64,000 bases of DNA from Cloeon dipterum (Eukaryota; Arthropoda; Insecta; Ephemeroptera; Baetidae). Where the stretch lies: positions 26,416,545-26,480,544 of the forward strand of contig NC_088790.1 in assembly GCF_949628265.1 (NCBI RefSeq), written 5' to 3'. Of the stretch, positions 8,105 to 57,989 are shown piece by piece. A model generated the notes under the pieces. It was not told the DNA's origin, made no database searches, and was given only the letters and a program-made list of their open reading frames with translations. The position numbers were made by a program, and so were the translations under genes. Every line of letters starts with the position of its first letter. Within the stretch, counting starts at the first letter, position 1.

Positions 8105-10238
8105 TCACGACTTCGTGGTAATGCTCTCTGCTGTGGGCCAGTGCATCTCAACAAAGAACATATAGACGGCCGTGCCTAAAAGTGCTCCAACGTGGGGGCC
8201 GAGAACTGGTATCCAACTCCAATACTCGTACCTGAAAAATGAATTGAGTGTATCAGTTTTAAATTAGACTAGAATATTTAATTGTAAGTTTTAAATAAAG
8301 GTCTCAGCCAGCCGCGCCGCGCCAGCCGGTATATTTTGGGCCACGTGAGCAGCCGCCAGTAAAAAAGGGTCAAAAATATCAAACTTCACGTTTAAAATAT
8401 TTTCTGTTACGCTAGTCGCCAGCCGCCGCCTTAACTCTTGTGGCTGAGACTTTTAGTTTTAAATAATCAACAGATTTCCGTTGAGATTTGTATTATTCAG
8501 GTGGAAATTTTTAACTGTACTTACGAAAACACATCAAAACTCCAGCCAGCGATTGCAGTGAAAAACCTGGGCGCCAGGTCCCTGGCCGGATTGTTGGGGT
8601 AGCCGCAATTGTAACCCAACGACACGCCGATAGCCACAACCACCATTCCGACTAGAACTGAAACCATCCCCCGCGACACGACCTGGTTCCTCGGATCTGT
8701 TATAGCACAAATCATAGCCAGAAGAACTGCTGTTCCCAAAACCTGAGAGATTGGAAAATGTTATTAAAAGGTCCAAAAAAATGTTGTGGATAAAATACGA
8801 GACCTGATCCACGAATCCGACTCCCAGTGACAAATAATCTTGCGGATAGGTCGCAAAGATTCCTGCAGTGCCCTTCTCTCCAGCAATTTGTCGGATTCCC
8901 CCGTCAAAATTCTGAAGCGCGTCTGCAAATTAATATGAATTTAGTAAATGCGGAAAAATATACAATGAAATTATTTAAATCAAAATGGTGGGGATTCAAA
9001 TGATTCAGAATTTGGTATATTTTGGGTTTTGACCAGCGGGGTCCAGATGTGCGATAAAATTGGTTCGCACTGCGCAGATCCAAGATGGCGTCTGAATGTG
9101 GGAAATAAAAAGCTCTCTTTTTATTCCCGTACGAATGTCAAGAGTTTGTTTTTACGATCCAAAAGACACAATTAGTTAAGAGTAATGCACATTATGTCAC
9201 AATATTGACCGAAACTTGGTTCTTTTCGCGCATTTTCACGTGACCGTTTTTTCGCGCCATACTCCACTGTGCACTATATCTGCGCGTCGCACGAATCTGG
9301 CCCCCGCTGACAAAAATCGGACAATCACCAAGAATAAATCTTCTTGACCAATCATCCTTTCCACCTAAATGCTGGTCTAATTTCGCAACAAATCTTAAAA
9401 AAATGTCAATAGATAGTGCTTTAAAATTTCGAATCCCGGCCTCTCTCTCCGTTACAACAAGCTGGTATTTGTGAGATAAATATGTTCAAGTGTTTGTTAT
9501 CGATATCATTTTAAACAAAACAAGTGGTGGCGCTCAAACCTTTATACTGATTAATTATGCCTTCTTTTTTTAATGTTTTTTAATTTAGGATGAATTATCG
9601 GCTGCTGCTGCATCAGCAGCAATTTAACGAAAATAAAATGAGATATTTCTGAATATATTTAAGTATGAATGTGAAAGAAATGTATAGTTAAAAGGTTGCA
9701 TATTACCGATGTAAATCATGTAGGTGCAGGCGGCGGCGACGAAGGCGCCCAAGTACTGCGCCAGCATGTAGTACAGCACTTTTCTGAAGGGAAACTTTCC
9801 GACGGCGGCCAATGCGAAGGTGACCGCGGGGTTGAGGTGGCCGCCGGACGCGGCACCGGCCACCAGAACGCCGACCATCACTCCAATGCCATACGAGAAA
9901 TTGATCGAGAGGAACTGACCGTATTTCTCTTCGCTCAGCACCTTCTGTGCCACTGAATTGTTGCCGATGAACTAAAATTAAGTTTTTGATATTTTTGGTC
10001 ATAAACTTCTGAAATTGAAAACTTACGACGAGGAAAAACGTTCCTAAAAACTCGGCCAGGATCTCGCGCAGCCAGACGCGTTCTGTGCGGCAAACGGCCA
10101 TAATTTGCTTCATCGGTTCTGCAACAATAATAACTCTGATGTTAAACTTCCAAATTTTGTTTTCACAGCATTAACTTTAATATGTAACGAGCTAATTAAA
10201 TAGAAAACGAAGAAAGCTAGGGCACACTTACTTTCCAT
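8105..10238 (-). CDS. Aquaglyceroporin (MIP family, Glp type, 275 aa, 6 exons)
   Basis: Membrane channel for glycerol, other small solutes and water. Exons: 10238-10232, 10118-10027, 9971-9707, 8922-8804, 8742-8525, 8231-8105; 828 nt, phases close. The first pore box is NPA at residues 80-82. The second is NPARD at 212-216, and this Asp after NPAR is the diagnostic residue of aquaglyceroporins. The family stretch TAGIFATYP lies in loop C. Before the second box a small Gly and an aromatic Tyr (GYNCGY) replace the water-selective His/Cys pair. Length is normal. The first coding exon has only seven bases (Met, Glu and one base). A TCAGT initiator lies at 10293-10289 on this strand. The donor after 8804 is weak (GTCTCG). 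Introns hold a 160 bp and a 276 bp inverted-repeat element. Insect aquaglyceroporin is near certain; ligand preference is inferred. Confidence 0.93.
8296..8455. mobile_element. Short TA-flanked element with GTCTCAGCC ends
   Basis: TA|AAGGTCTCAGCC at the left and GGCTGAGACTTT|TA at the right make a 160 bp element with inverted ends and TA flanks. It is G+C-rich at both ends and lies in the last intron of the aquaglyceroporin. The 43932-45352 element has similar ends. Confidence 0.55.
9034..9309. mobile_element. MITE with CAGCGGGG ends, copy 1
   Basis: The left end CAGCGGGGTCCAGAT and right end CCCCCGCTG are inverted repeats. The 276 bp interior matches 32167-32442 in the opposite orientation, so this is a dispersed element. 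It lies in intron 3 of the aquaglyceroporin. Confidence 0.65.
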
Positions 10239-14380: not shown

Positions 14381-17300
14381 TCAAGGCGAATAATCAAAAC
14401 TGATTTCACTTCCAGCTTTCTCCAAAATCCACTCCCTGAATCCTGCAACATCTGTGAAAACGGCAGGAAATTCAGGGTCGCAAAACTTGGCTCCGTAGAC
14501 GTTTCTCGCGATTGTTTCGCTGACTATGCCCCTCACGAAAAAGACATTTTCCTCCTGCAGCACTAATGCAGATCCGCTATCTCCGTTGCAAGGATTTGTG
14601 TTTTCTGAAATTAATTTTATTCTTAGTTAGCTGCACACATTGATTTTGATAAAAAAATCATTACTAAATAAATATCCAGCGCAGAACGAGGGTGACTGCT
14701 GCAATTTTCTGGCATAGTAAGACTCCTTTCCATGGATCGAACTGCATTCATCTATGGAGAAAATTGGCAATTCCAACTTTTGGAGAATATTTCCTGTATC
14801 ATAGTCCGCAACAAGGCCCCAACCTGCAATCTTTTGTTGTAAATATATTAGATTGGAACAGAGCGTTTTGATAAACTCCTCAAAACTCATTATTTGTCAG
14901 GAGTGTAATTTTTAATTGGTGAGAAAGTAACATCTTGAAGCAAAAATACTATAAAAACAAATCAAAATTTATCATCAAATTTATTCTACATTAAATGCTG
15001 AAACGTGAAACAAAAAGGCAGATGAAGGGTGATAAGCCCCGTTAAGTAAGCCCTGCACGGGCCCATTGCATGACTTTGCTTTGACAAGCACCACGCGACC
15101 ACCAAGCTGCAGATCCAGGTTTGACCCCTTCCACTCCATAGCCTAGCGATGTCACGGGTCGATGACCTTGAGCCATGAGACTCTCTGACCTTGATCCGGG
15201 GACTTTCCTCCAAAGAAACCTTGGATAGCAATGCGCCCCCATCTACCCGAGACTACACATGGCAATAGGCTGTACAGGTCATTGCTAGATGGGAGCTAGT
15301 CCTCTTTAATAGCAAATTTTATTTTAACTCTACTTAATTCATATGTCTACTAAAGTTTTGATCTTTGCATTAAACTTATAAATGGAGGTTTTCTACATAT
15401 TATAAAATCAAGACGCTGAATGGGACGCTGATAAATGAATTATTCTAGAACACTTTAAGGGAAACATGAGCACGGTTGGGGTATGTATGCAACCGGCCTC
15501 GCTGCTACGTCATCATGACGTATACCATAATTTCAAGGGGTTTATTTATTTCAAGGTTTATTTTATCCTCTCTAGCTTTTTAAGGCAAAGAGTTTCACTG
15601 GATCATTGGTTTCTACTATTAAACCCTTTTACCAAACTGTGCTAGAGAATCAACAAATTTTTTAGGCAACAAAATTATTTTCTAAGGAATTCTTCACTTG
15701 AGGAATGCATTATGAATGATGAAAAATGGGGCTTGTTTATCATTATAATTCTCAACAGAGAGTGATAAAATTAATATAACTTTAAAACAAACCGTGAAGG
15801 TTAATTTAAATTAAATATTGACAGACTTGATCGCTATATAAACAAACAAATTCGCGTAAGAATGTTAAATCAGTTAAAAAAAATTTATAGCTTCGTTAGT
15901 GTGTCACTATTTTTAATTTTAAACTAAAAAAGAGTAATTAATTAAATTTGAATTGTAATTTTAAACTTAAGTGATTATTTGAAAAGTTAAAATATACATT
16001 AAACTCACTATTGAAACAAATTGAAAAATTAATATTTTGCTACATAAACTTAACTTAATTTTTATAGTGTCAAATTTAACTCACAGTTCCATTTCTTCCC
16101 TGGATAATATCTACGTTCTTCGTTTTGAACCAAAGGCAAACAGGCGAGATGATGACCGAAAACTCGACATCGCGGTTCAGTTCGAGAAGGGCAATGTCGT
16201 TGCGGTGGTCGTCAAGATTGTACTCTTCGTGCGCAACTATTTTCCTCAGCTGCAATGACGTCAGAAATAAAACCCTTGAGGGAATGATTCATATTCATAT
16301 ACCGAGTGCAGCTGAACGCCAGAGTCGCTTGTCCAGCCGTCATTGAGCTGCTCCTTTCCCAGAGCCACAATTAGAGCTTGCGGAGGCAACAAGGCTCGTG
16401 CCTCGTAAACGCAGTGAGCAGCTTTAGAATTTTTTTTTTAATTAAATTGTGTTGTTTGCCAACGTTCAAGATTTTAAAAATACCAGTAAGAATGAATTTC
16501 TTTGATATTAAAGATCCGGTGCACGTGTATTCAGGCGGAGAGGCGGTGCTCGTTCTGAATAAAGCTGCGGACCAGGGGAAATCCCGCAGCTTCGCGTCCG
16601 TGCCCCGAAAAGCGAGCTGAATGCCGGGATCGCTGTGCACAACGCCACAGTTTGGATAGCTGCGGTGATCTGTGAAGGAATTAGTATGATGCGATTTTTA
16701 TATTTTAAAATAATTTACTTTGTGGTATTGAGGGTTTCGGTGTGATTTTGATATTCTCGGCGAAAAATTTGATGTGCCGTGCGACATCAGTAAAGCCGAG
16801 AACTCTGAAAACGCTGCACTCGACTTCTTTGTGCGTTGAAAGGTAATCGTTGTTGACGCCTCGCAGGTACCAGCGGTCGCCGATTTTAAACTGCATTGGT
16901 GCGCCCCAGCCTCTGAGACAAACTGAGCTAACTCCCTCTGTAAGTTATATTAAATTAAAAATATACCGAGGGAATTTTTTCATTTTTAAATATTTATCAG
17001 CAACAATAAAGATGCTTAATTTTTTGGCCAAATTCTATATTTTTAACCTTGATAAATAAGGCATAAATCAGGATCCTTGAAGTTCTTTCTAGCTTGTGGA
17101 TTTACTTCTGCTTTGCAATCGGCCGTCGAGGAGACTTTGAATTTGCCAACAACTTTTTTACCCGAATTTCCATCTTCTCCTGCAACCTTTAAAAATTATT
17201 CTTTTTTGTTAAATATATTTATAGTCAAAGGCCATCTTTGACGAAATTTTCGTGTACATGATCAACCAATCAATTCCTGAGGTTCGAATTAGGTTTGGGA

Positions 17301-19509
17301 ATCAACTTTTCCGGCCGGCAGTTCAGCGTGTCGTGTGTAACTATGTGTTTTTGGCGCCCAATCAGTACAAACATATGTACCTCGCTCTGATTGGTCGAGT
17401 CCGGCGCATGCGTCAAATCCGAGCTACTTAAATTCGACGCATGCGACAGGCTCGACCAATCAGAGCGAAGTACGCAGGTACGTACTATTTGGGCGCCTAA
17501 AACATTATCGTGTTTTCACAAGTCACGGGGAACTTCCGGTCGGAAAAGTTGGTCGCCTAACCAAATTCTAACCTCGCGCGGGAATCGATTTGTGGACACG
17601 AATTAAATCTCGGCAAAGACGCCCTTTAAATCCTGAAAGGAAAAATTAACAAGCAAAATTTAACAAATGTTTGAATTCTCACGCTTGCAATTCCTTGATT
17701 ATCAGTGATAAGAGATCCATTTGCCTCAATCGGCTTATTCCACAGGCAAATAGGCAAAACGCCACCTTCCAAAAGGTTTCTGTCAAATTTCAAGATGGCT
17801 AAGTTGGCTTGAAGCCTCTCTGAATCATATTCTGGGTGCACGACGATCTCGGATGGCTGAAAATTTTTAATTTAATGCTGATAATTTTAGAATAATAATA
17901 GCAAATAACTTACTCTTAAACTTTCCTGAATTTGAAAGCGGTTTTTCGCAAAGGTGACTATTACATCAGATGGATCTTTTCCATTCACGCAATACGCAGC
18001 TTCAGAGGAGTAAAATATTTTCACGTTTAATTTATTTATAGAATATCAAAGAAACAATTATTACCAGTGACGACATGGTATTTTGAAATGACTGATCCGT
18101 AACAAACGAAGTAATCAACAGACACCTTCACTTGCCAAGCGCGGTCGTTATTATTTTGCACTCGACCGCAATCTTCGTGGTTCAAATTGCTTGGGAAATA
18201 GAAGTCTTGAAAAAATAGAAAATTAGATTAATATATTACAGAGTTTTATTAATTTTTACCTGTTGCTAATTCCCTCAACTTAATATCGGTGTTTTCAGTA
18301 ATGAATTTAATCTTCCGAGCAACATCCGTGAATTTGTAAATCCTGAAAAACCTGCATTCGGCAGATTTGTCTTCGGTGTTGAAAAAGTTGGTGTTGACGC
18401 CTCTGAGAAACCAGCGGGCGCCGATTTTGAACTGCATCGGCGCGCCCCAGCCTTTGAGGCACACTCTGCTCAAACCCTCTGCAAAAAAACATTAGATGTA
18501 AATTAGAATTGAGGATTTGTGAAAATGTATTTACCCTGATACATGAGACATAGATCGTTTGATTTGAAATAAAACGATCCATGATTTATTGCTTTCCCAC
18601 AATCTTCATTGGAAACGACCTTGAACTTGCCCGCAGTTACCTTTCTGCTTGCTGAAACTTCTTCACCGACAATCTGTGAAAATAAATGATTTAATCCAGG
18701 AAATAGTTTCACTAAAATTAAACGGATCCCTTTTTCAGGAATTTTTTTAAGTAAATTTTATTTCCATAAATAAAAAAAATAGGATTTTACTGTAGCAATT
18801 ATTCCTCCATTTTCATGAACTGGCGATCCGTTGCCTGCAATCGGTTTGTTCCAAACACAAATAGGCACAACTCCATCCTTCAAAAGGTCACTCTCAAATT
18901 CAAGGATAGCCAACGGGTTTTGCGGCTCGACAATCAATCGTGAAGGCTTTACGACTGACAAAAAAAAATTATAAGTATTCAACACGAAGAGCTATATTTT
19001 TCTGCCAAACCGCTCCGAAATCCAGATTTTGCGAACGACACTGACACTTGGGACGCGATTGCTTCTCCTTCAACGCAACCAGCATCAGACGCTTCCAGGA
19101 ACGCGGTTAAAATAATAATTTAAATCAAAATTGGTATCTATTACCTGTGATAATGTATCGGTTTGAGATGACGGAGCCGTAGCATCGTGTCACTGTATTC
19201 TCGGTCTCGTCGAAAATTTCGATTTTCGCAAGCCAGGCACGTGCATCGCTGTTTCGCTCCAAGCCGCAATCCCTGTGGCTCAAATTGCCAGGAAACTCAA
19301 ACTCTAAAGGCAATTTTATTTCAATTAATTAGAAACCTTTGTTTCTGTTAAAAATCAATTTTTAAAAAAAGAATATTGAGGAAAATAAAGGAAGACTTAC
19401 GCAGTGAGCGTTTCGAGTGTTGCAATGATTGTGCATTGCAGAAATAAAGTGAAGATGCGGCGAGCAAGAAGATGATTGAAACGCAGCAACTCTCCGGAGC
19501 AACCTTCAT
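14381..19509 (-). CDS. Secreted triple serine-protease-domain protein (two pseudo-domains plus one active, 829 aa)
   Basis: Exons: 19509-19401, 19303-19145, 19091-19011, 18954-18791, 18673-18535, 18478-18260, 18205-18065, 17999-17914, 17856-17683, 17186-17048, 16937-16719, 16669-16484, 16421-16303, 16249-16085, 14830-14665, 14604-14381. All are GT-AG; 2490 nt, phases close. A signal peptide (about residues 1-27) precedes three chymotrypsin-fold units. Unit 1 (about 37-290) has Gly94, Pro130 and Trp228 where His, Asp and Ser should be. Unit 2 (about 291-543) has Tyr340, Asn384 and Trp481. Unit 3 (about 544-829) keeps the triad His608 (AAHC), Asp663 (DIALL) and Ser765 (GDSGS), ends in an FTDV...W helix, and has an RGIVS stretch as in modSP/gd-type immune and patterning proteases. 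Units 1 and 2 share exon phases and two equal exon lengths (139 and 219 nt), so they arose by internal duplication. A secreted immune or developmental protease with built-in regulatory pseudo-domains is the inference. Confidence 0.85.
15040..15300. other. G+C-richer block inside the largest protease intron
   Basis: This stretch of the 14831-16084 intron is clearly richer in G+C than its flanks, with no stop-free conserved frame I can identify. It may be a fragment of a retroelement or SINE. I could not recognise tRNA-like promoter boxes in it. Confidence 0.35.
17222..17629. mobile_element. Foldback MITE related to the 35262 element
   Basis: The left arm starts near 17222 (CATCTTTGACGAAA) and is mirrored by the right arm ending CGCCCTTTAA at 17629, with an inner hairpin around the GCATGCG boxes at about 17405-17445. 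It shares the TTTGACGAA, CCAATC and TTTTCCG blocks with 35262-35642. It lies inside the protease intron between exons 17856-17683 and 17186-17048. Confidence 0.6.
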
Positions 19510-26300: not shown

Positions 26301-29300
26301 TTAGAACAATTTGTTATATCATCCGAAAATTCAAATGATTTTCACTTGATGGTCGCCCTGTGCCCTGTGTATCGATCCACTTTAAACAATTAAAACTCTA
26401 ACACTTAACAATGGCGAAATTTTCGTGTCGTTGTGCCAGGTTGTTTGTGTGTTTACGCCTTTGTCCCGCAGCAACCGTGAATTATTTTGCAAACTACTTG
26501 TCCACGGGGGCTGCAAGGTGTCGAATTCTTGGCAGCCGAGCCGAAATCCTTTCTATTTTCCTCTTCAAATCATTTCCTCTGCTTCGTTTCGCTACACCCT
26601 AAACGCAAAAACAGAATTTTCTAGACGCAATGAAAAAAAATGCTAACTGGGCCAATTGATATTTAAATTTGCTTTATTTTGAAAAGCTATTTACACCCGT
26701 GAAATTTTTATAGATTATTTTATCTTAAAATTTCAATGATTAATAAAAAATAACTGTCAAAATCAAGCAGATTTATTTAAAAACGTGTTGCTTTTGATAC
26801 AAAAAATAATTTATTTTTCAAATCAATTGTAACATACTGATGCTTGCCAATTGAAAATGAAATTAAGATTAAAAACTGCAAATTTATTAAGCTTTTATTG
26901 CTAGACACGTTTTTTTTGCAAGGTGACTGACCTATTGACCTCCTGCCGTCCGAACATTTTGTTGTTTGTCGCTGCCGCAAATGAGTCAGTTTTTTTTCTG
27001 CGGGTTGTTGCTGGAAAAGATCCAACGTCGGGGCGGCATTAATTCTTAAAAGGGGCTGAGTCACGCCGTGCGAACCGAAGCGTCGGAGACTCACGGGCGC
27101 CGCCGGGATCTCTGCTCGCGAGTGTGCCGCAGCCGACGAGCCGACGTCTGTCCAAGCAGAGCGAAATCAATACTGTGTTCACTCTAATTTTCTGCCATAG
27201 GTAGTCCGGCGTGAAATATTAAATTTGGTGACTATAAATAAATTTAATTTCCAGATTTTGATAATAATTTTTTTTCTGAAGCCTCCATCCATTTAAAGGG
27301 AAAGTTTGAAAAATTGTCCCGAGATGCAAACGGTCACTGGTAAAATAAATATTTTTCAACTGACAGCGCAATAGAAATGATTTTTTCGCTTGAATCTGAT
27401 GGAAACGGTGATTCAAATGCTTTACGTTTTACTACCCTTGGGTTGGTATTAATGAGGCTCTCTTTTTTTATATAATTGCCTGTTGTAAAACGAACGTTCA
27501 ATGCGCCAACTTTGTTTCACTGGGCACGCGAGCTCGGCTTCAATTGCTCTTTACGGCCTTCTTTGTTCCCTCTGATTTACTGCGTAGATATTCGCATTAT
27601 TGCTGGCGTCTCTTGTGCTCCGCTCCGCTCTGTTGTGGTACTTCGAGTGTTTGTTTGCATAGAGTGAAGGATGTGGCGACGAAATTGTGACGGCCCGTTA
27701 CTGACAAGAAAACTCTACGCGCAGTTAATAGACGCTAGAACATTACAAAATTATGACACAAAATAAAAAGGAAATATATTTTGGCTCTTACGTTTCCTGT
27801 TTTTTTGGCACCCAATTTTTAACAAGAATTTCCTCTTCAGATATTCCTTTTGAATGAGATGCGAAACCTGCAAAAAATCCTGCGGCATCACAAGTTTAGT
27901 GCATTATTTCTTGAACTTTGAACATTCTGAAAAACAATTACGGTTTTAACTGGAACAAATTATACTTCTAAATTTGGCGGGGCAATTTTACTAATAGTGT
28001 TTGCTGTTTAATTGGCCGGATGTGGAGGTTGCGTGAGAGAGAGAGAGCCGCCTAGATTCAACCCGTGCAGGAGTTGCGTGCAGATGTTTTTTGCATGCCA
28101 ATATTTTGAAAAATAAAAAAGTTCCGTCATCACCAAAGAGGCACGACGAGAGATATTAAATTTGCAAATTGCAGCCTCCAATTGAATGCTCAAAATATTT
28201 TTACGCTCCCTAAATTTCACGTTCAGATAATCATATAGAAAGGGAAGATAATTGTTCCAACTGGCATGTGAACAAATTTTTAACTTTTTTTCTGGTTGTG
28301 GCCGAGCCAAACGATTTCGTAATGGAGCAAATAGAGAGAAAAAAAGGGGCGTCGATGTTTTTCGACCCGGCATCATCTTCGTAGCTACTCAGCCGCTGGC
28401 GGACGTTCAAACTATTGTACTCGGTCTGGAAAGCTTTAATGCGAGGTCGATTTCGGCCAATGAACTTTCATCTCGCGTCACTATAATACACGCACACTGT
28501 TAGAGAAATGTGCGAATTTTACTGCCCCTCGAGCAATAAAAACATAAAATTATCCGCAATCTTCGCGAAACTGTACAGAAAATCTAGACACGCTAGATTA
28601 GACTTTGTAAGTGGAGAAAAAATATTAAGTTCCTCAAAGATTGGCATGCTAAAAGTGATTTCAGCAAAATCTCCAGGGTTCCGCTGCGATTGCTCGGTAT
28701 CTCGAACGGAAATGAGCAGGGAAAACAGTCGCAAAATAATGTTCTTTTATCTTAAAGGCACGCAATTTCCTAAAATTGTTAAAACCCTTCTCGCTGTTAC
28801 TGACGTTTTAATTCAAATTTCAATTATTATTTGACTCTTGTTCTCAGGAGTCCGTTCTGCAAGACTTGCGTTGGTTGTCCAACAACATCAGCAAAGCAGA
28901 AGAGGACCGGTGGCAGCTGGAAGCGACAAAACGACTAATACGCTATCAGGACTTTTTGTACCAGAAGTTCAAAGACAAAGGTCTGGAGGACGATCCGAGA
29001 GAGGTTTGGAACTTCTGGAACGCCGTCTTTTACTGCGGGACAATCTACACAACTATAGGTCAGTTCAGAAACTCATTTTTTTCCACGCTGAGAGAGAGAG
29101 AACCAACAGAGGGGAAATTATCAAGTTGTGTAATGCAGTCGAAACATTTATTTGTTGCTTTCTTATTTCTTCATTTCTTATTCAGAGAGTATAGCTTTTA
29201 AGCACTTGTTCGCCTTTTTGGTCCAGCGAATTATGGCGACAAGTGCAAATAAACGCTTTTGGCAGATTATTGCCCTCGACGCCGGTCTTGCTGATCAAAA

Positions 29301-38300: not shown

Positions 38301-41300
38301 CGATTCCCCCCCGACCACCCCCTCCCTCGAGTTATTCACCCGTATTTTCGGCTTTTAATTGAGTGTACTCGCTCGACCCGGGTTATTTTTGGACGCGCGA
38401 GTTATTTAACTGACGGTGAATCAACACGCCGAACGTGTGCGTCAGGGGGTCCCGCTCCCTCTGTTAATTGGCCCGTGCATAATAGACATCCAATTTGTCG
38501 CGCGAGGAACGTGATCGGATTTGTTTTCTCATTGTCAGCAGAGAATAATATTCCTGGAAAGAAAGGGAAGAAGCGATCGAGTTTGCTGCCTTTTGTAGCA
38601 ATTATCCCCCATCGGTCGAAAACAAAACAGAGGGGGAATGGTGTATAGACTGCTTTGTCATGCAACGTGGATTTGACTTGACTGGATATTATTTTTTTAT
38701 TAATTTTTCATTGGATTTAATACTCTTACTGATTATCATAGACCCTCGCCTTCATTTTTGCCCATTTTGCTCCAATTCACCATCTTCCCCAGTTGAAGTC
38801 ACACGAGTAGGGTGTAGAATTTTAGATTTTACAGACGGAAAATCCCTTCCGAAAGAGTTTTGGGCTTAACTTAAAACGGTTTTAATTTTAAACTGTTTTC
38901 TTCCAAGCAGTTTTTTATTTTGTATTTTTTTGTGATTTTACCTTCTTAATAGGTCTAAAATTTCCCTTTAAACCATTTTCACGCAGTGAAATTAAATTCA
39001 AATCAATTTAATCATGGAAAGTTTATTGTTCCACCTAAGTTTAACATCTATTTCCGATTAAAAACGTTAAAATAAAAAAATGTTAAATTAGAAACTGCCA
39101 AAATCGATTTTTCCCTTTTTTAAAAATCAATAAACAGACTTCTCACAAAGCAACTTTTTAATCCTGCCTGAAAAAATATATATTGCTGTTTAAAATATAA
39201 AATACTGCGACAAAGTATAGTCTTCGGGATTTTTTAAGGTTTCAGAAGCGATTTAGACCGATTTGGGCAATAAATATGATTTTAAGCGAAGCTCTAAAAG
39301 TCTTAAAATTGCGCGATTCTTGCTCATTTAGTGAGATGCTCAGTAAAATGTTCTTGAATTTCAAACTTTTATAAATCTGAAAAATACAGCATTGGAAATC
39401 AAATCTTTCACGTTCCTTAAATGATATTTAAATTATTTTTCATCACATTGAAGCAAATTTTCGCTCCTTATATCCCAATCTCAAAAGGCAGTCTCACTAC
39501 TTTCCTCCGTATTTCCTCTACAATGCTCGTCTCATACGTTTGTCAGGAGAAATCGCCTAGCAGCAATCCAGAAATTAGAGCAGGAGGACGAGGAAGCTGC
39601 TGCTGCCGCTGCAGCAGCTGATCGAAGGCATTCGGCGACTTGTTCAGATGACTTTATCAGAGAGGAAGAGGAAAAGGAGGATGAGGGTACCGAAAAAAAG
39701 GACGAAGAAAAAGCCGAAGAGGACGAGGAAGATAAACCGGGCTTCTTTGACAGCTACTTTGAGCTCCTTTTCGAGGTCAAAAACGCTTGGCCGCAATTTA
39801 AGGAAGAACACGATGAGGATTGGAAACTGATCAGAATCGAGGCTAACAGGTCCGTTTTTTTCGTGCCTCAAAAGTTGAATGAAGACTTAAAAGGCAGAAT
39901 CGAGAATCATCTTCGATTTTTCAGAAGGGAAGAATATGCGGACAATCCTCGTCTTTGTTTTGCCCTATTTTACGGAATTTTCTGAATAAAAATAACAATA
40001 AAGAATAAAATTATATTAAAATAATTGAATCTCATCATACGAGATCGAAGCCCAAAGGTGAGATGAAAGTTGGCAGTCTCATTTTGAGACCCGATATTTG
40101 GATCTCTCATGGTGAGCAATAATTTTTACAGTGTACAAAAATGTAATAAATTTATAAAGTCCCTTTCCACAGATTGATATGATTTTTTTTTACAATTTTT
40201 AAATGTTCGAAACAGCAAAATTCATTGCAATCCGTGTAAAATTAACTCTGTTTTTTATATATAATTTACGTGCCATCCGAAACACGAAGGCAAAATAAAG
40301 ATGATCATGTGTACGACGAGGATTGTCTGGGTTATTTTCCTTCTTCTGGTAACAAATTCTCTAGTGTCTCCTTCAGCCACACTCTTATCCTTATTACACC
40401 GACTCAAAAACCGACTCTTGGACCTTGCCAATTAGATGCTTCTGCTCATTCGTGATCCTATTCCTGTTCTGCGGCTTCGGTGGCTTCATCTTCCGCTTCA
40501 CCGAGAGCACCTTCGAGCAGTTCTACAAGTGCGGTGTCAAGCGGGTCAAACGCGACTTCATCGAGGGGCTGTGGGTCAAGAGTCAGCAGATGCGCGAGGA
40601 GGAGTGGAAGTCGATGGCGCGTAGGAAGCTCTGGGAGTTCGAGGACCAGCTGCAGGCCGCCTTCGACGCCGGCATTAACTCTTACTCGGGCCAGAAGTCG
40701 TGGAGCTTCCTCAACGCGGTCGTTTACTGCATTACCATCGTCACCACCATCGGTACAACAACAAAAACTTGATAATTTTAGTAGTTGCATAATCCCTTAG
40801 TGTCCGAAGCCGCCAACAGATGGCACCACCGTATACTTTCGTAATAAATTTATTTTTAAGGCACTTCCGCTGTGATTTCAGACTCAATCCTGTCACTGTA
40901 CATTCTTCACTTAATATGCGTTCTTTTGACGTGCTGAAAACCAAAATCAGTTCAGAAATTCGCCGTAGAAACGTTGAAAAATATTTTATATTTAAAAAAA
41001 ATAGTTTTTCATGATTCTATGGCGATATATGCTGAAGCAATTTTGGTTTTCAGCACGTCAAAAGAAACAAAGATTAAGTGAAGAATGCACAGTGGCAGGA
41101 TTAAATCTGAAATCACAGCGGAAGTGCCTTAAAATTAAATTTATTACTAAAGTATACGGTGGCGCCATCTGCTGGCGGCTTCGAACACTATAAGGGCTTC
41201 TAAACCTGGCGTGTTAAGATGGTTTTTAGGGTTTTAGCGCATTGTTTTTATTGCAATTCATACGTACTTGAGAGGCTCAATGGAATTTCGATGATTTTTT

Positions 41301-44300
41301 TTCATAAATCTAGGTTTAAAAACATTTACAGAAAAAAGCTTAAAGAATCAATCTCTTAAATTATCAGATGTAATTATACAATTTAAATGTATTTACGCTG
41401 CACTAATCCTATTTATTTAAAATGATTTCTTAATGATGTCTTAAATCAAAAATTCGGTTCAACCAATCGGAGTAAAAATTTAAAAAATTGAAAATAATAA
41501 AAACAATATTTGATGATGTTTCTACGATGATTGGCTGGACTGATTTTTGGTTCCAGCTCATGAAAATGAATAATTTTAAGTGCAGAATGTAGTGGCTAGA
41601 TTGAGTTTGAAATCGAGTGCCGAGTTTTAAATCGGAAATAACTGCTATCCATAGCGCCATTTATTGGCGGCTTCAAAACTTGGTTGACTGTGTTGAATTT
41701 GTACAAAAAAATCTAAAGAACTTCCCAATTGGTTAAATTACCTTTTATAACCCCTCTATAGGATTAGCAAAAGATTAAAATATTTAAATAATTGAAACCT
41801 GATAATTTCAAAAAAAAATTATTTATAATTGACGTATGAATTTTTAACTTAAAAGAACTTAATAAATTAAAAACTAATTTTAAAAAAGGCTTGTTCTCTC
41901 GTAAGCTTGGATTTTAGCCGATTTAGACTTTCAATAATTATTTAAACTTGCATGATTTGTGCTCATTTGATGGTCCCGTGCCTTCCGTGACGGTTGGACG
42001 TTTAAAAAAATATCGACCGTCTAAAATTCACAGCATTCTAGCTGAAATATTCAAGTGCGGCGTAATATTTTGCTTGAAATACTTCTACTTTTTACAATCC
42101 GATTATCTTGGGTGCTTTTTCCCAGTCCCATTTGTTGAATCGACTAGCTTTTATTACCAGCGTCGCGTTTGAACGCTCAACCAACCGCGCGCTGCCTTGA
42201 TAAAATAAAACTTTGCAACACCCAGACGACTGACAATGCCTGTGCACAACTTTTATCATTTTATTCTATTTGATTAGCGTTTTCCCGCACTGCAGATAAA
42301 ACGCTTCGCTCGTCGCTGGCGTCGCGCGAACACACACACACCCGAGACACGAGACACTTTTTTCCCCAGACACGCTGGTGTGAAACAAATAACACGTGTG
42401 GAGCTGCGACGGTTTAATCACGTTTCATTCACGTCTAAACCTGACCAAAATACGAATTTAAAAAATAAACTCTTAATTTCTGTTGGTTTTCTCTCGTTTG
42501 CCTGAAATTGACTCCGCGTTTGTTCAAGTTTAAATTAATTGCTTTTGGTGTGATTTTTTTCAGGCTATGGTCACATCACTCCTTCAACAAACACCGGAAA
42601 GGCGGTTACGATTATTTACGCCATCTTCGGCATCCCACTGTTTTTGATCCTGTTGGCCGACTTTGGCAAGATGTTCACCAGGGCCATGAAATTTTTATGG
42701 GCCTTTGTGCGCAGGCTGTACTACACCGGCAGCTGCAGGAAGGTCAGACACACCGCGCCTGTTCAGGTAAAAACTTTGATTTAAATTTATCCTCTTTTTT
42801 AAACTGTCATCGGAATTTAAATATGTTGAAACGGAAAATAATATACGGTTAATTTCATTCATTTGGACGGTTTGGTAAAAATGGTGGGTGAGTACAGATT
42901 CATAAGATTTCGTAGATTTTGAGAGTGGTGGTTGGTGGTACTTTCCGTACTTTCACTTCAGCAACTCATCAAACTTTTGCTCCGTTTATTCAAGCATATT
43001 TTTCTATAAAATTAAAAATGTTTAAAGAGAATTGATACTGATTGGAAAATCCTTGTTGCTAATGTATGATTTTTTGAAGCCAAATTTAGCGCTGTAAATT
43101 TTTGAGTAAAGTGGCTGCAAAATTAGCATATGCTTTTCAAATAGTAAGGACTTGAAATCCTATTTTTTTCACAACAAAGAGTTTCCCTAAAAGGTTTCAT
43201 ATGCTGTTAATTAGACAGATCTCGACGAAAGGAATCGAAAAATGTGGTCAAGCGCTGGAAATTTTGGAGAAAATTTAAAAAATGTGATTTTTTAGTCGTT
43301 TTTATTTGTTTATTGATCAACCTGCTTATTGCATCCAACAATTAAAATGATTTTCAATTGTCACCCTGTATCAATCCACTTTAAAACAAAATAATTTTGG
43401 AAAAAATGGAACTTTCGCCGTCAGAGCACGAAATGCAACCAAATCGCTTATTTTTCGTCACATCTTCTGCCGCTTTATCACGCCAGATTTGCCACTTTTG
43501 GATTTGGACTACTAAGCTGAAATCACAACTAAACCCCTTTGCTTCCCTTTTCAGGAGGTGATGAAGGGTGTCCAGATGGTCTACGACATAGCTCGATTCC
43601 AGAAGAAACCTGGCGAGACGAACGGCCACGGTGCTGCCGCCGACCCTGAAGTGGCCGGCGCCCAGTTGCAGGAGTTGCTGACGGTGCCGGGGGTGGGACC
43701 TGAGCCGCCCACGCCCGCCCCCAGCAACTTTGACATAGATGACGAGTTCAACCTGCCCATCTCGGTTGCGTTCGTCATCCTGGTCATCTACATCCTGGTC
43801 GGGGCCACGCTCTACTGCATGTGGGAGGATTGGACCTTCTTTGAAGCCTTCTACTTTGTATTTATTTCCATGTCAACCATTGGCTTCGGAGACTACGTGC
43901 CCAAAGTGAGTAATTCTTAATTAGATTTAGTTAGAGGTCTCATTGTCAGGCGGCGGCTGCCGGGACCGGCTTAGCTGAATTTTTTAAATTGGGGCCGGCT
44001 GACAATATTTAAATAGTGCGGAGGTAGACATCTGAGTGAGTCACCCACATTTTGATCGGCGGCTGGCTTTCCGGCTCCGAGCCGTCAAAACAGAGACGTC
44101 AGCGGCAGCTGGAAAAATTTCATCGGCTCGGTTTTGCAGTCAGCTAAAGTGATTTTTAAGACTGTGTTACTCAAACGTCACAACTGCATTATTTGCTTAT
44201 ACCACCCAGTTTATCACCACTCAACTTTAAACTTATTTTTTGCGCTAGAAATGAATTTATTCCATTTTCCCATGTGAAAATCTAAAATTTGCGGTCAAAA

Positions 44301-49812: not shown

Positions 49813-51339
49813 CTATGATCTTGCGCCGACTGCAGCCTTGAGTAGTTTATGCCTAGCCTCACCCCCAATTACGTTTCTCTCCATTACCCATAAAGTGTCG
49901 TTCTCGTCCAAGGCAAAAGTAAATGGCAAACTACCATCCAGACTTCCGACCTAAAAGAGAGCAGTGATTTGATATCGTAAGCTTCACGGAGCATAAATAG
50001 TATTTTATAAGAACAGGACGTATATATTTAATTTGGTAATTTATTTTGTATCACATTAAAGACGATCATGTTGGATTCTATACTCTTAAATTTCCTCGAA
50101 ATTACAACAAAACAGGGTTCTCCAACTGTTGCAATAATGCACGGGAAAGGCAGCCATGTTGAATATCAGCATCAAAATTTTCTGTTTTAAGGACTCCAAA
50201 TAAAACATTTTTTAATTTTGTTGATCGGGCAGAGCTAAAATTTCAATTTTACAGGGAAATATTACCTCATGTAAACGCTGCTCACGGAAGGGCTCCGAAG
50301 TATTCCATTTGGAGAAGTAATTCTGGAAGTAAAATGCGGCATACAAGACATTGGCACTGTCGATCAACATTCTGTAAGGTTTTTCAGTAAAATTGCCAAT
50401 GAATTTAACAGCAGCGCTTCCGCCTTCATTCTTCAGCTCAGACACAGACACTGAATTCAGTACTTTTGAGCCTAATATTCCAATAAGGTACAACGACTGT
50501 CTCGCTTCCCTGTTAGGAGAGATTGCCAAGGAAAGCCAACGATCCCCTGTTGTTTTAACTGACCAAGATTTGTCGGTTTTTCGGCTGTAAACTACGATGC
50601 GCTCAGAAAAAAGGTCCGCAATATACGCAAGGTAATCGTCTGGCGTTTTGTCGAGCACTAAATCATGCAGCTTCCTTTTATTATATGAATGAGAGACAAC
50701 TGTGTCCGGAAACTGGTGAACGCGCTCGGTTCTGTCGTTGTTGAGAAGGTCGAATATCCAAAGTTTGCTCGGACAATTGCTGCTACCTAGGTCAAGCGCC
50801 CACAACCGACCATCAGTGTCCGTTTCCATACCTTTGGCCCATTGAATAGTGTCGCAGTTGTCTTCTTTCTGGAAAGAGAAATGAAACAGTTACTATTTAA
50901 ACAAATATCAAATCGATCTTTTTGTCCGACACTTTCTGTTAAATGAGTTGGTTTCACGTCAAATTTCCCCAGTATATTCTAACAGAGGCTGAGGACAGTT
51001 TTTTTTATTTCAGAAATAACTTACATGTAAATCCAAGGATGGGAACAGAGCAAGCTTTGGAGGCGCGGTCGACGTGCCGCTCGTTGGCAACCACATCAGT
51101 GTGGTGGGAATTCCAGCATGCGGAATAAGGCTTAGAAAAAGTCTTTTCTCAAAAACAGCCAGGTTAAGAAAATGAACATTCTTTGGAATAAAATTTCGTT
51201 GAATCTGTCCATTTGAACTTTTCGCTCTTGACGGCCAGGCGAAATCAAATTTGTCCCACTCGTAGACGGTTGTGAAGTTGATGGCGTTGGCTAGGCACAG
51301 CAGGCCATGCAAAAAGATGGCAAAAAAGAACGGAGACAT
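49813..51339 (-). CDS. Yellow/MRJP-family protein, copy A (351 aa)
   Basis: Secreted six-bladed propeller protein. Exons: 51339-51025, 50868-50266, 49950-49813; 1056 nt, phases close. A signal peptide of about 19 residues ends at ANA. The mature protein opens with the family hallmark FTTVYEW...F.WPS. Conserved blocks follow: TDTDGRLWALD, CPSKLWIFDL, VHQFPDTVV, a propeller strand with IVVYSRK, SPNREAR, and VLYAAFYFQNYFSKWN. The third exon contributes DTLWVMERN. Length is on the short side for the family (often 400 or more). A non-coding 5' exon ends at 51548, with a UTR intron 51547-51350. The start is the first ATG after that acceptor. The yellow subfamily cannot be fixed by eye. Neighbouring copies B-D share the structure. 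Confidence 0.92.
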
Positions 51340-51651
51340 TGGGTTCGAGCTGAAAAAAAAGAAATTAAATTAAAAGACGTTTATTAATACCGATATTTAT
51401 GCGTGATGGTTAATAGAAAAAATATTTAAATCTAAAATCCATCAGTTCATTCTGCCATAGTATCAGTTCATACTATGCCATATCAGTTCATTTAGAGGAA
51501 CTAAAACTATTAAAATTTCTCAAAAATAAAAAATAAATTGCACTGACCTCTTTAGAAATGTCCAGAGCAAACGAGGAGCGAATTGCTGAATGGCTCTGCC
51601 TGGTTTAACTTGTGCCTTTTTATTCAACCAACGCGGTAAATTTTTCACGCT

Positions 51652-51715
51652 TTATCTCGCTTTGATAAAGTTGACATCATGCATTATCCCTGCGAGAAAA
51701 ATCACGTGTTTATCA
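51652..51715 (-). promoter_or_regulatory. Paired GATA sites and E-box upstream of yellow copy A
   Basis: The plus strand reads TTATCTCGCTTTGATAA (51652-51668), two GATA sites in inverted orientation, and CACGTG at 51703-51708 with another TTATC at 51710. The same block is kept upstream of copies B, C and D, about 310-320 bases above each ATG. Confidence 0.55.
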
Positions 51716-51744
51716 CATGAAAACTTGTCTTTTTTCAATAAGAT

Positions 51745-52440
51745 TTTTTGAACCTCTGCTCAGCACATCCCGTGGACTATGAACTCACGACCTGATCCCA
51801 ATAAAACTGCGGAGCAGATAAATTAGGACCCAAGTGGCCGCTGATCAGAGGAACTTGGGCCCAATGTGGCCCAGAAGGGCCCAAGCCCGCGCACTGACTT
51901 CGGAAAAAATTTGTGTATTTCGTGTCGTGAAAGAGTGGAATGATATATATTTGTATTATGCAACTCGCTCTGAAGGACTGCTCTGCGGCACAGTTTCCTT
52001 CCATCTGCAAGGCGTAAAAGTGATTTTAATGTGCGATTATTTCGTGATGTTAGATTTTCACTAGTCTGGGCTCACTTATTGTTAGGCTTTGTTCGCCTGG
52101 GTAGGGCGGTCCCTTTTAGTCACCTGTCTTCCTGAATATGATTTCCATTTTTAATTGACTGCGATACAGTATTTATTATTCTTGTTTATTCTTGCTCTAG
52201 TCAACCGCAATAAAATACAATGGCAGTTTAGTGTAGACACAAGGAAGAACTTGAAGGAGTCCAGGACTTTCTACGAGTAAGACGACACAGCTTAGCGACG
52301 GGGCCCGGCCGAGACAGCAGAAATACGAGCCCATGCATCGACAGCAAAGCGAGAGGCTGACTCAAGCCGAGGCCACACCTTACAAGAATCATCACGCGTG
52401 GCCGCAAGCCGCGAATAATAAGGATTATCACTTGAAGTGC
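51745..52440. other. Intergenic DNA between yellow A and B with repeat fragments
   Basis: 51745-51890 belongs to the dispersed repeat also at 34490-34610, 54960-55080 and 61090-61200. The stretch at 51890-52440 is richer in G+C and resembles the degraded tail of a retroelement (frame with RVVKEWN near 51920), but I cannot place it with confidence. Confidence 0.35.
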
Positions 52441-52573
52441 CGAGTATTTTACTCAACAAAGTTTAAATTAAAACAAGAGAGATTCCCAAATTAATGAAAT
52501 TATTTAATTTTGTTCTTATTTCCCTCGTAATGGGGAGTACAGGATAGTTTAATTTACTTTCGGATGGGCTGAA

Positions 52574-54533
52574 TTAATATGACGTTGCGCCGACTGCAGC
52601 CTTGAGTAATTTATGCCTAGCCTCAGTCACATTTCGCTCTGTCATCCATAAAGTGTCGTTCGCGTCTAAGGCAAGAGTAAATGGCCAACTAGCATACAGT
52701 CTTCCGACCTAAAAGAGAGCAGTGATTGGATATTATTAACTTGACAAAGCGTAAATAGATGGTAATATAAGGAGAGGAAAAATATTAAAGTCGGCATTTC
52801 ATTTTGTAGCAATTAAATTAAAGACGATTCTTCTACTTAATAATTTCCACGAAAATTCGCACATATGAAATAGGTCTGTCTTATTGGGTTGCAACAAAGC
52901 AGAGTTTCCCAATTGATGCAATTTACAATGCACGGAATAGGAAACCATGTACAAAATCAAAATAAATTGCTTCGCATTTCAAGAGAAACAACTATTCCGT
53001 ATTTTGCAAAATTTTAGCGTTTGTTGATCGGCAGAAAATTTCGAACTTTACAGGAAAATGTTACCTCGTGAAAACGCTGCTCTCGAAAGGGCTCCGAAGT
53101 ATTCCATTTGGAGAGGTAATTCTGGCCGTAAAAGGCGGCATACAAGACATTGCCACTGTCGATCAACATTCTGTAAGGAGATTCAGTCCATTCGCCGATG
53201 AATTCAACAGCAGCGCTTCCGCCTTCATTCTTCAGCTCAGACACAGACACTGAATTCAGTACTTTTGAGCCTAATATTCCAATAAGGTACAACGACTGTC
53301 TCGCTTCCCTGTTAGGAGAGAGGGCCAAAGAAAGCCAACGATCCCTTGTGGTTTTAACTGACCAGGATTTGTCCAATTTTCGGCTGTAAACCACAATTTG
53401 CCCAAAACTAGTAGCCGCGATATACGCAAGGAAATCGTCTGGCGTTTTGTCGAGCGCTACTTCATACAGCTTCCTTTTTTTATATGAATGAGGGACGACT
53501 GTGTCCGGAAACTGGTGAACTCGGTCGGTTCTGTCGTTGTTGGTCAGGTCGAATATCCAAAGTTTGCTCGGACAGACGCTGCCACCTTCATCCAGCACCC
53601 ACAACCGACCGTCAGTGTCCGTTTCCACACCTTTGGCCGCCTGAATAGTGCTACAAATGTCTTTTTTCTGGAAAGAGAAATAAAAACAGTTAACTATTTA
53701 AAAATGTACTGTTTTATTTTATATCCAAAATCGATCTTTAAACCAGTCGAAAATTTGATATCAATTCTAAAAGAATAGATTTTTTAAACCAAGATTAAGT
53801 TTAGTTCTGTAAAATGAATAAATCTTTAGCTTTTGGCTCCGTTCAGTATGTGACACGAAAAGTAATAGCAAAATAATAAGCTTATTTTTTAGCTTTTCAA
53901 ATTTAATTTTGCTTATTGTTAGAACATTACTAAAAAAATGAAAATTGAGGGGGGGGAATCCTTTTTTGCTGTTTTCAAGTATAATGTCATGCTCCATTTC
54001 TAATAAATCACTCTGTGAATGAATGTGTTTTCCTCAAAAATATATATGTTGCGTCATCATGTAGTCTATAAATCAACGCGAAATAAAAAAGCAGTAAATT
54101 GAGAATTTGTCCGACATTTTATACGTCTCCATTCAAATACTTTATACAAAATGATTTGATATCACACTCACACCAAATTTCCCGTTTTTTTTTCAAAACC
54201 GTTTTCTATTCTGAAACTTACGTGTAAATCCCAGGACGGGAAAGGAGTGAGCTTTGGAGGTGCAGTCGACGTGCTTCTCGTTGGCAACCACACCAAAGTG
54301 GCGGGAATTCCGGTCTTCAAATCAAGGCTTAGAAACAGCCTTTCCTCAAAAACAGCCATGTATCGAAAATAAATATCCATTGAATTAAAATTTTGATCAA
54401 TCTGTCCATTTGAACTGTTTGCTTCTGATGGCCAGACGAAATCCAATTCATCCCACTCGTAGACGGTTGTGAAGTTGATGGCGTTGGCCAGGCACAGGCC
54501 GTGCAAAAAGATGGCAAAAAAGAACGAAGACAT
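52574..54533 (-). CDS. Yellow/MRJP-family protein, copy B (349 aa)
   Basis: Exons: 54533-54222, 53667-53065, 52708-52574; 1050 nt, phases close. Signal peptide, then INFTTVYEWDELDF, TDTDGRLWVLDEG, CPSKLWIFDL, IVVYSRK, SPNREAR and FYGQNYLSKWN as in copy A. The last exon is one codon shorter than in A and C and ends TSY. A tract of roughly 115 bases in exon 2 (about 53205-53320) is nearly identical to copy A, far more so than its flanks. The non-coding 5' exon ends at 54754. Confidence 0.92.
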
Positions 54534-54855
54534 TGGGTTCGAGCTGAAAGCAAATAAATTAAATTTAAAAAAAACGTATATGTTAACTCTTTTTTATTGG
54601 ATATTTTTGCATGATGGTTAATATAAAATATTGCTTAAAATTCTTTATTCATTTTAGCATAAACTCAGGGTATTTAAAATGAAATAGGTACCAGACTCAA
54701 AATGAGTGGAATAATTTTGTTTAGAACTGCAAGATATAAAAATTAAGACAGACCTTTTTAGGAAAATCCGGAGCGAACGAGAGCAAAGTCAAGGAGTGGC
54801 TTTGAATGATTTGAATCGGTCTTTTTAACCAACCAAGGCGGAACTTTTTCGCTCT

Positions 54856-54914
54856 TTATCTCGCCTTTGATAAATCGCACATCGCATCATTAACCTTGTA
54901 AGAAAAATCACGTG
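54856..54914 (-). promoter_or_regulatory. Paired GATA sites and E-box upstream of yellow copy B
   Basis: TTATCTCGCCTTTGATAA at 54856-54873 and CACGTG at 54909-54914, in the same order and spacing as upstream of copies A and C. Confidence 0.55.
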
Positions 54915-55416
54915 CCTAACACGCAAAAAATTTGAATTTTTTACACCGCGAGTATATTTATCAACTTCTACTTAGCACATCCCGCCTGGCTATGAGCTCA
55001 CCAGTTCCCAATAACACCGCCGAGCAGACAAATTAGGCCTGAGTGGCCGCAGAGGAGAATGGGCCGAACGTGGCCGCGGCACTGACAGTGAGGACTTTTA
55101 TTGAAACGCCAGACATTTGTCTCCCTAACGCCGCTGAAAAGGTGCGAAAACCAGCAAGTGGCAAATTTAAAATAAAAAAATTAATTTTGATTCCTGAGAT
55201 TTTATCAAGGACTCTTATCATTTAGAATTCTAATCCACAGAGTTTAAAATGTGTTAAGCTTTATTTTGTTTTTTTTTCACTTTGCTATTTATTAATATGA
55301 AACACAGAATATTATATAATTATAGTCTCGCTTTTACGCATCTGTTTGTTGAGAGATTTTTGTGCTCAATGAGAAATTAAATAATATTATAAGTTGACCA
55401 CTGTAAAGCGTGCTTA

Positions 55417-55603
55417 TCATGACACTCCCGTCTCTATCCATTGTGAGGAGAAGGGTAGACGAGTGCTGAGTAGAAATTGTGGTAAAAATCTGCCAAGTTG
55501 GGTCTTCTGCAGAAAATTTTCATTGTTTGGTCTTTTAGAAACAGGAATCTGAGAGAAGACGTGGTCATTGATGTTGTTCCTTATGCTTAGGGCGAAGTCA
55601 AGG
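55417..55603 (-). other. Exon-like block downstream of yellow copy C
   Basis: A TTTTGCAG acceptor (before 55603) opens a 61-codon frame starting LDFALSIRNNINDHVF and ending at TGA (55419-55417). A paralogous block at about 58480-58690, downstream of copy D, is shifted out of frame. I found no such block behind copies A and B. It could be a 3' UTR exon, a remnant of another gene, or a conserved control region. It does not join the copy C exon 3 frame, which stops first. Confidence 0.3.
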
Positions 55604-55907
55604 CTGCAAAAGGATAATGAACAGGAGAGAGATTAGACTCTGTAAGTGGTGTTGGCGCGTCTTCCAAAGGAATAGGACTGGGAATTCTATAGACGGATTT
55701 TCGGGCAAAACTGTAAGCGATGGTAAATTTATATTGAAAATCTAAAATCGGTATGATTGGCTAGTTTTTTTATCCCAAAACAAAAGTCCGTCTATAAGCA
55801 AGAAAGATTCCCAGTTAAATTATGATCTTTACTTTAAATTTTTCCTATATTTCCCTCGCAGTGGAAAGTGCACTTGAATTAAATTTACCAGTGGATGAGG
55901 TGAGTAA

Positions 55908-57585: not shown

Positions 57586-57903
57586 TTTGTTCGAGCTGAA
57601 AGCAAAAAAAAAATTAAACAAGTTTTTTTAACTCGTTTTATTACTCATCGTAAAAAATTTTGGCTTAAGTCCAATATTCATTCTACCAAAGTTTCAGTGC
57701 ATTAAAAAATGAACTAATTAAATGACTGACAAATGATCGGCAGAAAAAATAGTAAAATCCACCAAAATAATTAATTTTGCACTGACCTCTTTAGGGACAA
57801 CCAGAGCGAACGAGAGCAAATGAATGGAGCGAAATATTGAATGGCTTTGAATGGTTTAACTCGAGCGCCTTTTAGACTAACCAACGGGAACCTTTATCAC
57901 GCT

Positions 57904-57958
57904 TTATCTCGCCTTTGATAAAGTTGACATGCACCACCCCTGCGAGAAAAATCACGTG
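57904..57958 (-). promoter_or_regulatory. Paired GATA sites and E-box upstream of yellow copy C
   Basis: TTATCTCGCCTTTGATAA at 57904-57921 and CACGTG at 57953-57958, matching copies A and B. Confidence 0.55.
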
Positions 57959-57989
57959 TTTAATTCGTGAAATAATAACCATCTTGTTT

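Follow-up and report, generated by a model that had tools for sequence, protein, structure and literature searches.

On the minus strand of the Cloeon dipterum genome, at positions 19509..14381 of a 64,000-nucleotide stretch of contig NC_088790.1 (hereafter the window), lies a gene predicted to encode a single secreted chain of 829 residues in which two serine protease homologue (SPH) units, each with all three residues of the catalytic triad replaced, precede one serine protease (SP) unit with an intact triad. Comparing the sequences of these units with one another and with their relatives, we suggest with moderate confidence that this SPH-SPH-SP protein is a zymogen in which the two pseudo-units form an arm that acts as an exosite or recognition module. 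Domains 1 and 2 look like folded, unactivatable pseudo-proteases, given that the activation segment is gone and the eight canonical cysteines are kept, and a built-in binding or regulatory arm is the role that appears most likely for them.

Sixteen phase-consistent exons splice to 2490 nt encoding 829 amino acids (aa) and a stop, all introns begin with GT and end with AG (15/15), and the intron phase at every border between units is phase 1; the single chain read from these exons in the initial annotation is thereby upheld as one open reading frame. It divides into domain 1 (aa 38-290), domain 2 (aa 291-543) and domain 3 (aa 544-829). The three chymotrypsin folds proposed for it agree with Pfam Trypsin (PF00089), which finds three stretches along the chain (E 2.4e-63 for the whole protein) and also scores above its curated cut-off on isolated domains 1 (E 2.5e-6) and 2 (E 1.3e-13). 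With three trypsin-like units in one open reading frame after in-silico splicing, the protein falls among the polyserases or polypeptidases, i.e. proteins with at least two such units in one chain. Exon 1 (19401..19509; this and all further exons lie on the minus strand) supplies the start Met, a hydrophobic signal peptide, judged by eye, and a short propeptide with the dibasic site SKR|S (within HSKRSLQ, aa 31-37), directly before the first unit.

Alignment of the His57, Asp102 and Ser195 columns separates the three units, and the residues found are those reported in the initial annotation. In domain 1, exon 2 (19145..19303) runs from NLSHRDCG to CYGSVISNRYIIT, exon 3 (19011..19091) has Gly94 at the His57 column and is followed by the weak donor GTTTGG, exon 4 (18791..18954) has Pro130 at the Asp102 column, exon 5 (18535..18673) continues the unit, and exon 6 (18260..18478), with CLKGWGAPMQFKIG...RWFLRG, has Trp228 at the Ser195 column. 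Domain 2 starts at aa 291 in exon 7 (18065..18205) and carries Tyr340 (exon 8, 17914..17999), Asn384 (exon 9, 17683..17856) and, beyond exon 10 (17048..17186), Trp481 in exon 11 (16719..16937), which contains CLRGWGAPMQFKIGDRWYLRG. Domain 3 starts at aa 544 in exon 12 (16484..16669), which also carries Cys551, and retains His608 in TAAHC (exon 13, 16303..16421), Asp663 in NDIAL (exon 14, 16085..16249) and, after exon 15 (14665..14830; IAGWG...FCAGYLF), Ser765 in NGDSGSA (exon 16, 14381..14604, which ends with the stop). Domain 3 is on these grounds a trypsin-like S1A unit; domains 1 and 2 are not, and their Pfam Trypsin match together with the loss of the three triad residues makes them SPH units. 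A palindrome-like element in intron 9 (window 17279-17575), perhaps a foldback transposon, has two inverted repeats nested in each other, one of 73 nt (82%) and one of 62 nt (79%).

The pseudo-units also appear to differ from the protease unit in their capacity to be activated. The distance from the leading CG to the first Trp is 9 residues in three pseudo-units (domains 1 and 2 and that of a paralogue on contig C4, described below) versus 23 in the two catalytic units of these genes, from which we conclude that the activation segment is absent from the pseudo-units. In domain 3 the alignment predicts an activation site in exon 12, GIQL|AFRG, with cleavage after Leu (Leu562|Ala563). The S1 columns of this domain, read by eye, hold Asn189/Thr216/Ala226, unlike the Asp189 of trypsins. 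Eight trypsin-fold cysteines form the pairs 1-122, 42-58, 168-182 and 191-220, and all eight are present at canonical positions in each of the five units of the two genes. Because the 24 cysteines outside the signal peptide of the 829-aa chain amount to eight per unit, none is spare for bridges between units.

An alternative to the gene model as such, that two or three neighbouring genes have been mistaken for one, we regard as highly improbable. The model was built from genomic sequence, which leaves room for such an error; the introns between the units, however, measure only 54 nt (18259..18206, domains 1/2) and 49 nt (16718..16670, domains 2/3), gaps too small for a gene end, a promoter and a new signal peptide, the joins are in phase 1, and the C4 paralogue joins its two units in like manner. 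Gap size and this matching layout led us to reject separate genes. The weakest junction in the model is that of exons 3 and 4 in domain 1, whose donor GCG|GTTTGG scores 2.5 against a range of 1.9 to 9.2 in a reference set of 44 donors taken from the window gene and from three relatives of it, a GC donor and an exon-1 donor being omitted; of the three donors whose phase fits the chosen acceptor, it has the highest score. An alternative phase-0 donor at 19047 (score 2.9), together with an acceptor before CCT found by eye, would also preserve the frame and would remove about 15 residues that are partly common to domains 1 and 2.

The pseudo-units appear to be conserved despite the loss of catalysis. 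The proportion of nonsynonymous differences (pN) is 0.30, 0.36 and 0.34 for the three pairs of pseudo-units and 0.30 for the catalytic pair, with the synonymous proportion (pS) saturated at about 0.75 in the pseudo-unit pairs and 0.74 in the catalytic pair, and because the pN values are similar the constraint on replacements in the pseudo-units is about that of the protease unit. Their most conserved 23-column stretch, SSCLRGWGAPMQFKIGDRWYLRG, is that of the former active site: 17/23 of its columns are invariant versus 84/240 overall, an enrichment equalled in 38/5000 column shuffles, and pairwise identity among the pseudo-units is 78-83% within it versus 41-49% outside. At the matching stretch the catalytic pair is only slightly more similar than elsewhere, with 62% identity versus 54% outside (15/24 versus 142/261 columns).

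The paralogue on contig C4 (C4:29163935-29160446, 585 aa), spliced independently, consists of one pseudo-unit and one catalytic unit and shares with the window gene the intron phases, a dibasic propeptide (RAKR|S), a predicted Leu|Ala activation site (L|AFGG) and the motif NGDSG[SA]A. It differs in having one pseudo-unit rather than two, with Phe at the Ser195 column and Ile at the His57 column. Identity is 52% between domains 1 and 2, 48% and 45% between the C4 pseudo-unit and domains 1 and 2, respectively, 55% for the catalytic pair and 22-25% between pseudo and catalytic units, and a tree of the units splits pseudo from catalytic units at 100/100 support. The order among domain 1, domain 2 and the C4 unit is less clear: all three pairings are acceptable (approximately unbiased test, p 0.36 both for domain 1 with domain 2 and for domain 1 with C4), the best tree pairs domain 2 with C4 at a support of 51/11, and a short two-exon tree favors the same pairing weakly (92/46). 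With Phe in C4 and all three pairings acceptable, the shared Trp may or may not have been fixed before the duplication, as the initial annotation suggested it was. The second pseudo-unit probably goes back to an SPH-SP ancestor in which a block of exons with phase-1 borders on both sides was duplicated in tandem; loss of one pseudo-unit in the C4 paralogue is a possible alternative. A truncated tandem copy of the paralogue (C4:29154599-29155737) retains two pseudo-unit exons, the first of them partial, and three catalytic exons, with the parts between missing.

The window's own assembly (190.1 Mb, 10 contigs) was searched with the single domains. Domain 3 gave 103 matches, domain 1 gave 11, none of them outside the window gene and the C4 locus, and domain 2 gave 16, i.e. 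these two loci and five weak matches elsewhere. The neighbours of other catalytic matches revealed a second, diverged N-terminal unit starting with NLSxxxCG or a similar sequence. Two genes of this kind were spliced in full, at C2:0.53 Mb (562 aa) and C2:24.63 Mb (583 aa), and their pseudo-units have no activation segment; Pfam Trypsin matches the first protein in two stretches and the second in one, its pseudo-unit, unlike those of the window gene, being too diverged to show. The second unit of the C2:24.63 Mb protein has TAAKC and by this motif is probably dead too. The window gene, with NLSxxxCG-type pseudo-units that lack an activation segment followed by a C-terminal protease, belongs by this layout to the same SPH-SP family.

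Queries with the pseudo-units of the two C2 genes gave 126 genome matches each (E up to 1). We hand-picked 52 places of a C-terminal pseudo-exon from these matches (50 from one query and two more from the other), the two query genes included, and 73 catalytic places from the 103 domain 3 matches, and paired those on the same strand with the catalytic exon downstream within 3.5 kb. Counted as places regardless of gene intactness, 47/52 pseudo-exons have a catalytic exon downstream (median gap 954 nt), and two pseudo-exons precede the catalytic exon in 0/47, which is a weak test for doubled units because neither the window gene nor the C4 gene appeared among the matches to these queries. Among the five unpaired places, C2:29773558, which lies over a catalytic exon, is no pseudo-exon, whereas C2:24352284 has a downstream catalytic exon, absent from the domain 3 matches, in an exon-level profile scan. 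Paired places extend over C2:0.5-36.0 Mb and C4:1.2-32.6 Mb with a few on C1 and C5, and many are clustered.

The profile scan, which covered 27 genomic stretches and the window, recovered pseudo-N, pseudo-C, catalytic-N and catalytic-C, complete and in this order, at 18 loci including the C4 paralogue; in one of them there is a gap of 7.4 kb, and several depend on weak matches (E up to 0.1). The remaining loci were partial, without a pseudo-unit match, as at C2:29.77 Mb, where the scan saw no pseudo-unit, or cut by the ends of the stretches. Among the 19 loci resolved in this way, a subset of the family, the pair pseudo-N, pseudo-C is doubled before the catalytic unit only at the window gene. 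A seeming second SPH-SPH-SP gene at C2:35663766-35667191, marked by two N-terminal matches, was rejected: read by eye, the gene lying downstream starts on its own with a signal peptide, and what lies upstream is a fragment that has a separate signal peptide and runs into a stop. At the 17 resolved loci besides the window gene and C4 the Ser loop reads GDSGG (10), GDSGS (4), GDSGA (1), GDNGG (1) or GDAGG (1), and many of them show a conserved pseudo-unit strand approximating LVNFxxGRYFLRG. The family is not uniformly catalytic, given that at least three loci, C2:35.64 Mb (GDNGG), C2:35.66 Mb (GDAGG) and C2:24.63 Mb (TAAKC), may by these motifs be inactive in both units.

Three shared traits, namely the start with NLSxxxCG, the lack of an activation segment and similar intron phases, would suggest that the fusion in the window/C4 pair and that in the larger group have a common origin. 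This finds no support from the catalytic units: in their two-exon tree the window and C4 units pair at 98/96 apart from the larger group and are not nested in it, and two PDB proteases group on the window/C4 side (94/84). The tree of pseudo-units unites those of the window gene and C4 in one clade (100/99) on a long branch.

The initial annotation knew of no insect modSP/gd-like protease with two tandem pseudo-domains in front, yet the layout is not isolated: this genome has many genes in which a single pseudo-unit precedes a protease-like one, and three-unit chains are known from human, namely polyserase-2, whose gene we take to be PRSS36, and from a beetle. Secreted three-unit proteases with two dead units are already in print, polyserase-2 (PMC1435904) and pSerP614 of Tenebrio molitor (PMC11172050). 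Polyserase-2 has three trypsin-like units in one secreted chain with a single active unit, and, as in the window gene, its dead units lack the activation motif; in contrast, it is a vertebrate protein whose active unit comes first rather than last, and the likeness is one of layout (PMC1435904). The Tenebrio polypeptidases are insect chains of two or three SP/SPH units, pSerP614 having one SP and two SPH units, and they differ from the window gene by upstream regulatory regions, most often Sushi, by L#I activation sites that are predicted ahead of each unit in the six secreted members, and by an N-terminal active unit in four two-unit proteins (PMC11172050). In the open-licence literature, judged mostly from listings, no example was found of the SPH-SPH-SP order without Sushi modules or of the SPH-SP family.

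The initial annotation also placed the protein near modSP and gd. In the table of a honey-bee survey, gd- and HP14-related proteases have a predicted cut after Leu, as domain 3 does in GIQL|AFRG, and the gd-like SP46 has GDSGSG, similar to the GDSGS of domain 3 (PMC1761132); GDSGS is a weak marker because it also occurs in 4/17 other family members. The modules ahead of the protease do not correspond. According to PMC10036332, modSP combines LDLa with CCP/Wonton modules and gd has a Gd domain. LDLa repeats and CCP/Wonton modules precede the protease in modSP/HP14, and a GD_N domain (PF16030) stands at the N-terminus of gd, whereas the 829-aa protein has no match to LDLa, Sushi, clip or GD_N in Pfam at E up to 1; the hits at this threshold are Trypsin, Trypsin_2, DUF316 and a sub-threshold DUF1986, all over the protease units, and the sole NCBIfam match is far under its cut-off. 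In view of these missing modules, any resemblance to modSP/gd extends no further than the catalytic domain. GD_N itself has three matches elsewhere in the genome, at C2:14.81 Mb and C3:34.16-34.17 Mb. The clip-domain SPHs (PPAF/SPH cofactors) resemble domains 1 and 2 as triad-less trypsin folds, which in their case assist an active protease, but they are separate proteins with a six-cysteine clip domain and require cleavage, whereas the pseudo-units described here are covalently built in and have neither a clip match nor a cleavage segment; with all 24 cysteines at canonical protease positions, the chain is not a clip-domain SP/SPH. As analogies of function, SPH cofactors and the dead units of polyserases come nearest.

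Combining these data, we suggest that the signal peptide and the short dibasic propeptide would be removed and that the zymogen would then be cut at Leu562|Ala563, after which a predicted 1-122 disulphide, Cys551-Cys683, would keep the pseudo-unit arm attached. The arm would bind a surface, a partner or a substrate through its conserved former active-site face. It would thereby be a permanent exosite or a module for recognition, taking the position that LDLa, Sushi or clip modules have in other cascade proteases of arthropods. The helper role for the pseudo-domains put forward in the initial annotation is probably correct in so far as it is non-catalytic. Several observations weigh against the model. 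With pS saturated there is no reliable selection ratio; SSCLRGWGAPMQFKIGDRWYLRG overlaps an expected core strand of the trypsin fold, so that its conservation may be partly structural; and in the two fully spliced C2 genes the strand is kept and the 191-195 loop is lost, so that this loop is not conserved beyond the window/C4 subfamily. Moreover, domain 1 appears, by eye and in comparison with domain 2, to have lost the ancestral exon-3 donor and to use the weak one instead.

The same features could be read differently. That the pseudo-units are intramolecular inhibitors or decoys, restraining the protease or competing for its substrate, strikes us as unlikely: they do remain on the chain, where the predicted disulphide would hold them even after activation, and SPH units have been described as dominant negative binding proteins, an idea relayed for secreted polyserases and applied to the Tenebrio polypeptidases in PMC11172050, but no inhibitor family matched the 829-aa protein in Pfam at E up to 1, and dead units at the N-terminus are the reverse of the polyserase-2 order (PMC1435904). 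Sequence alone does not separate this role from that of an exosite. A still poorer prospect is that the pseudo-units are left over from a duplicated protease as relics or mere spacers and decay without function. They have indeed lost the whole triad and the activation segment, and domain 1 has both a 2-residue insertion at the His57 loop and the weak splice donor; yet the ten pseudo-unit exons are open and in phase, replacement constraint is near that of the catalytic unit (with synonymous sites saturated), each unit retains its eight cysteines, and conservation within the pseudo-units is highest along the former active-site stretch. Constraint and cysteines in particular disfavor decay.

The immune cascade named in the initial annotation is a candidate role, and the exosite or recognition arm that we favor need not serve it. 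Work in the gut, reproductive tract, cuticle or embryonic patterning is a substantial possibility that falls short of being probable; as it is compatible with the arm model, the two likelihoods are not shares of a single whole. Digestive and reproductive protease families are often large and clustered, and the present family is large and clustered as well. Against this, digestive trypsins do not usually have activation after Leu or a regulatory arm at the N-terminus. Serine-protease pathways of insects work in embryos too, and a honey-bee paper proposes one for the dorsoventral axis (PMC1761132).

Elsewhere in the window, four tandem yellow/major-royal-jelly-like open reading frames occupy 50212-60052 on the minus strand, all of which match Pfam MRJP (4/4, E 4.5e-16 to 5.5e-22), and an aquaporin-type MIP exon lies at 9624-9971 (minus strand). 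Three Ion_trans_2 ion-channel exons on the plus strand (28812-29201, 40365-40772 and 43516-43920; 2/3 just under the Pfam cut-off) perhaps belong to two-pore potassium channels, and low-complexity repeats at 61378-62038 give long open frames on both strands.

In arthropods, pseudo-proteases are known chiefly as stand-alone cofactors to active proteases. We tentatively suggest that an expanded class of proteases in this genome has two components, one of which, a cryptic pseudo-protease at the N-terminus in place of an LDLa, Sushi or clip module, would serve as a sensor or docking arm, and that the window gene might be a doubled sensor with the former active-site face as a ligand site; the ligand-site part stays conditional, because part of SSCLRGWGAPMQFKIGDRWYLRG is probably core strand. 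Such SPH-SP layouts may be overlooked in other organisms, since a diverged N-terminal unit can escape a standard domain scan, as at C2:24.63 Mb. With one pseudo-unit fused to the enzyme in one gene and two in its sister within one genome, the pair offers a natural comparison of what a dead protease contributes.

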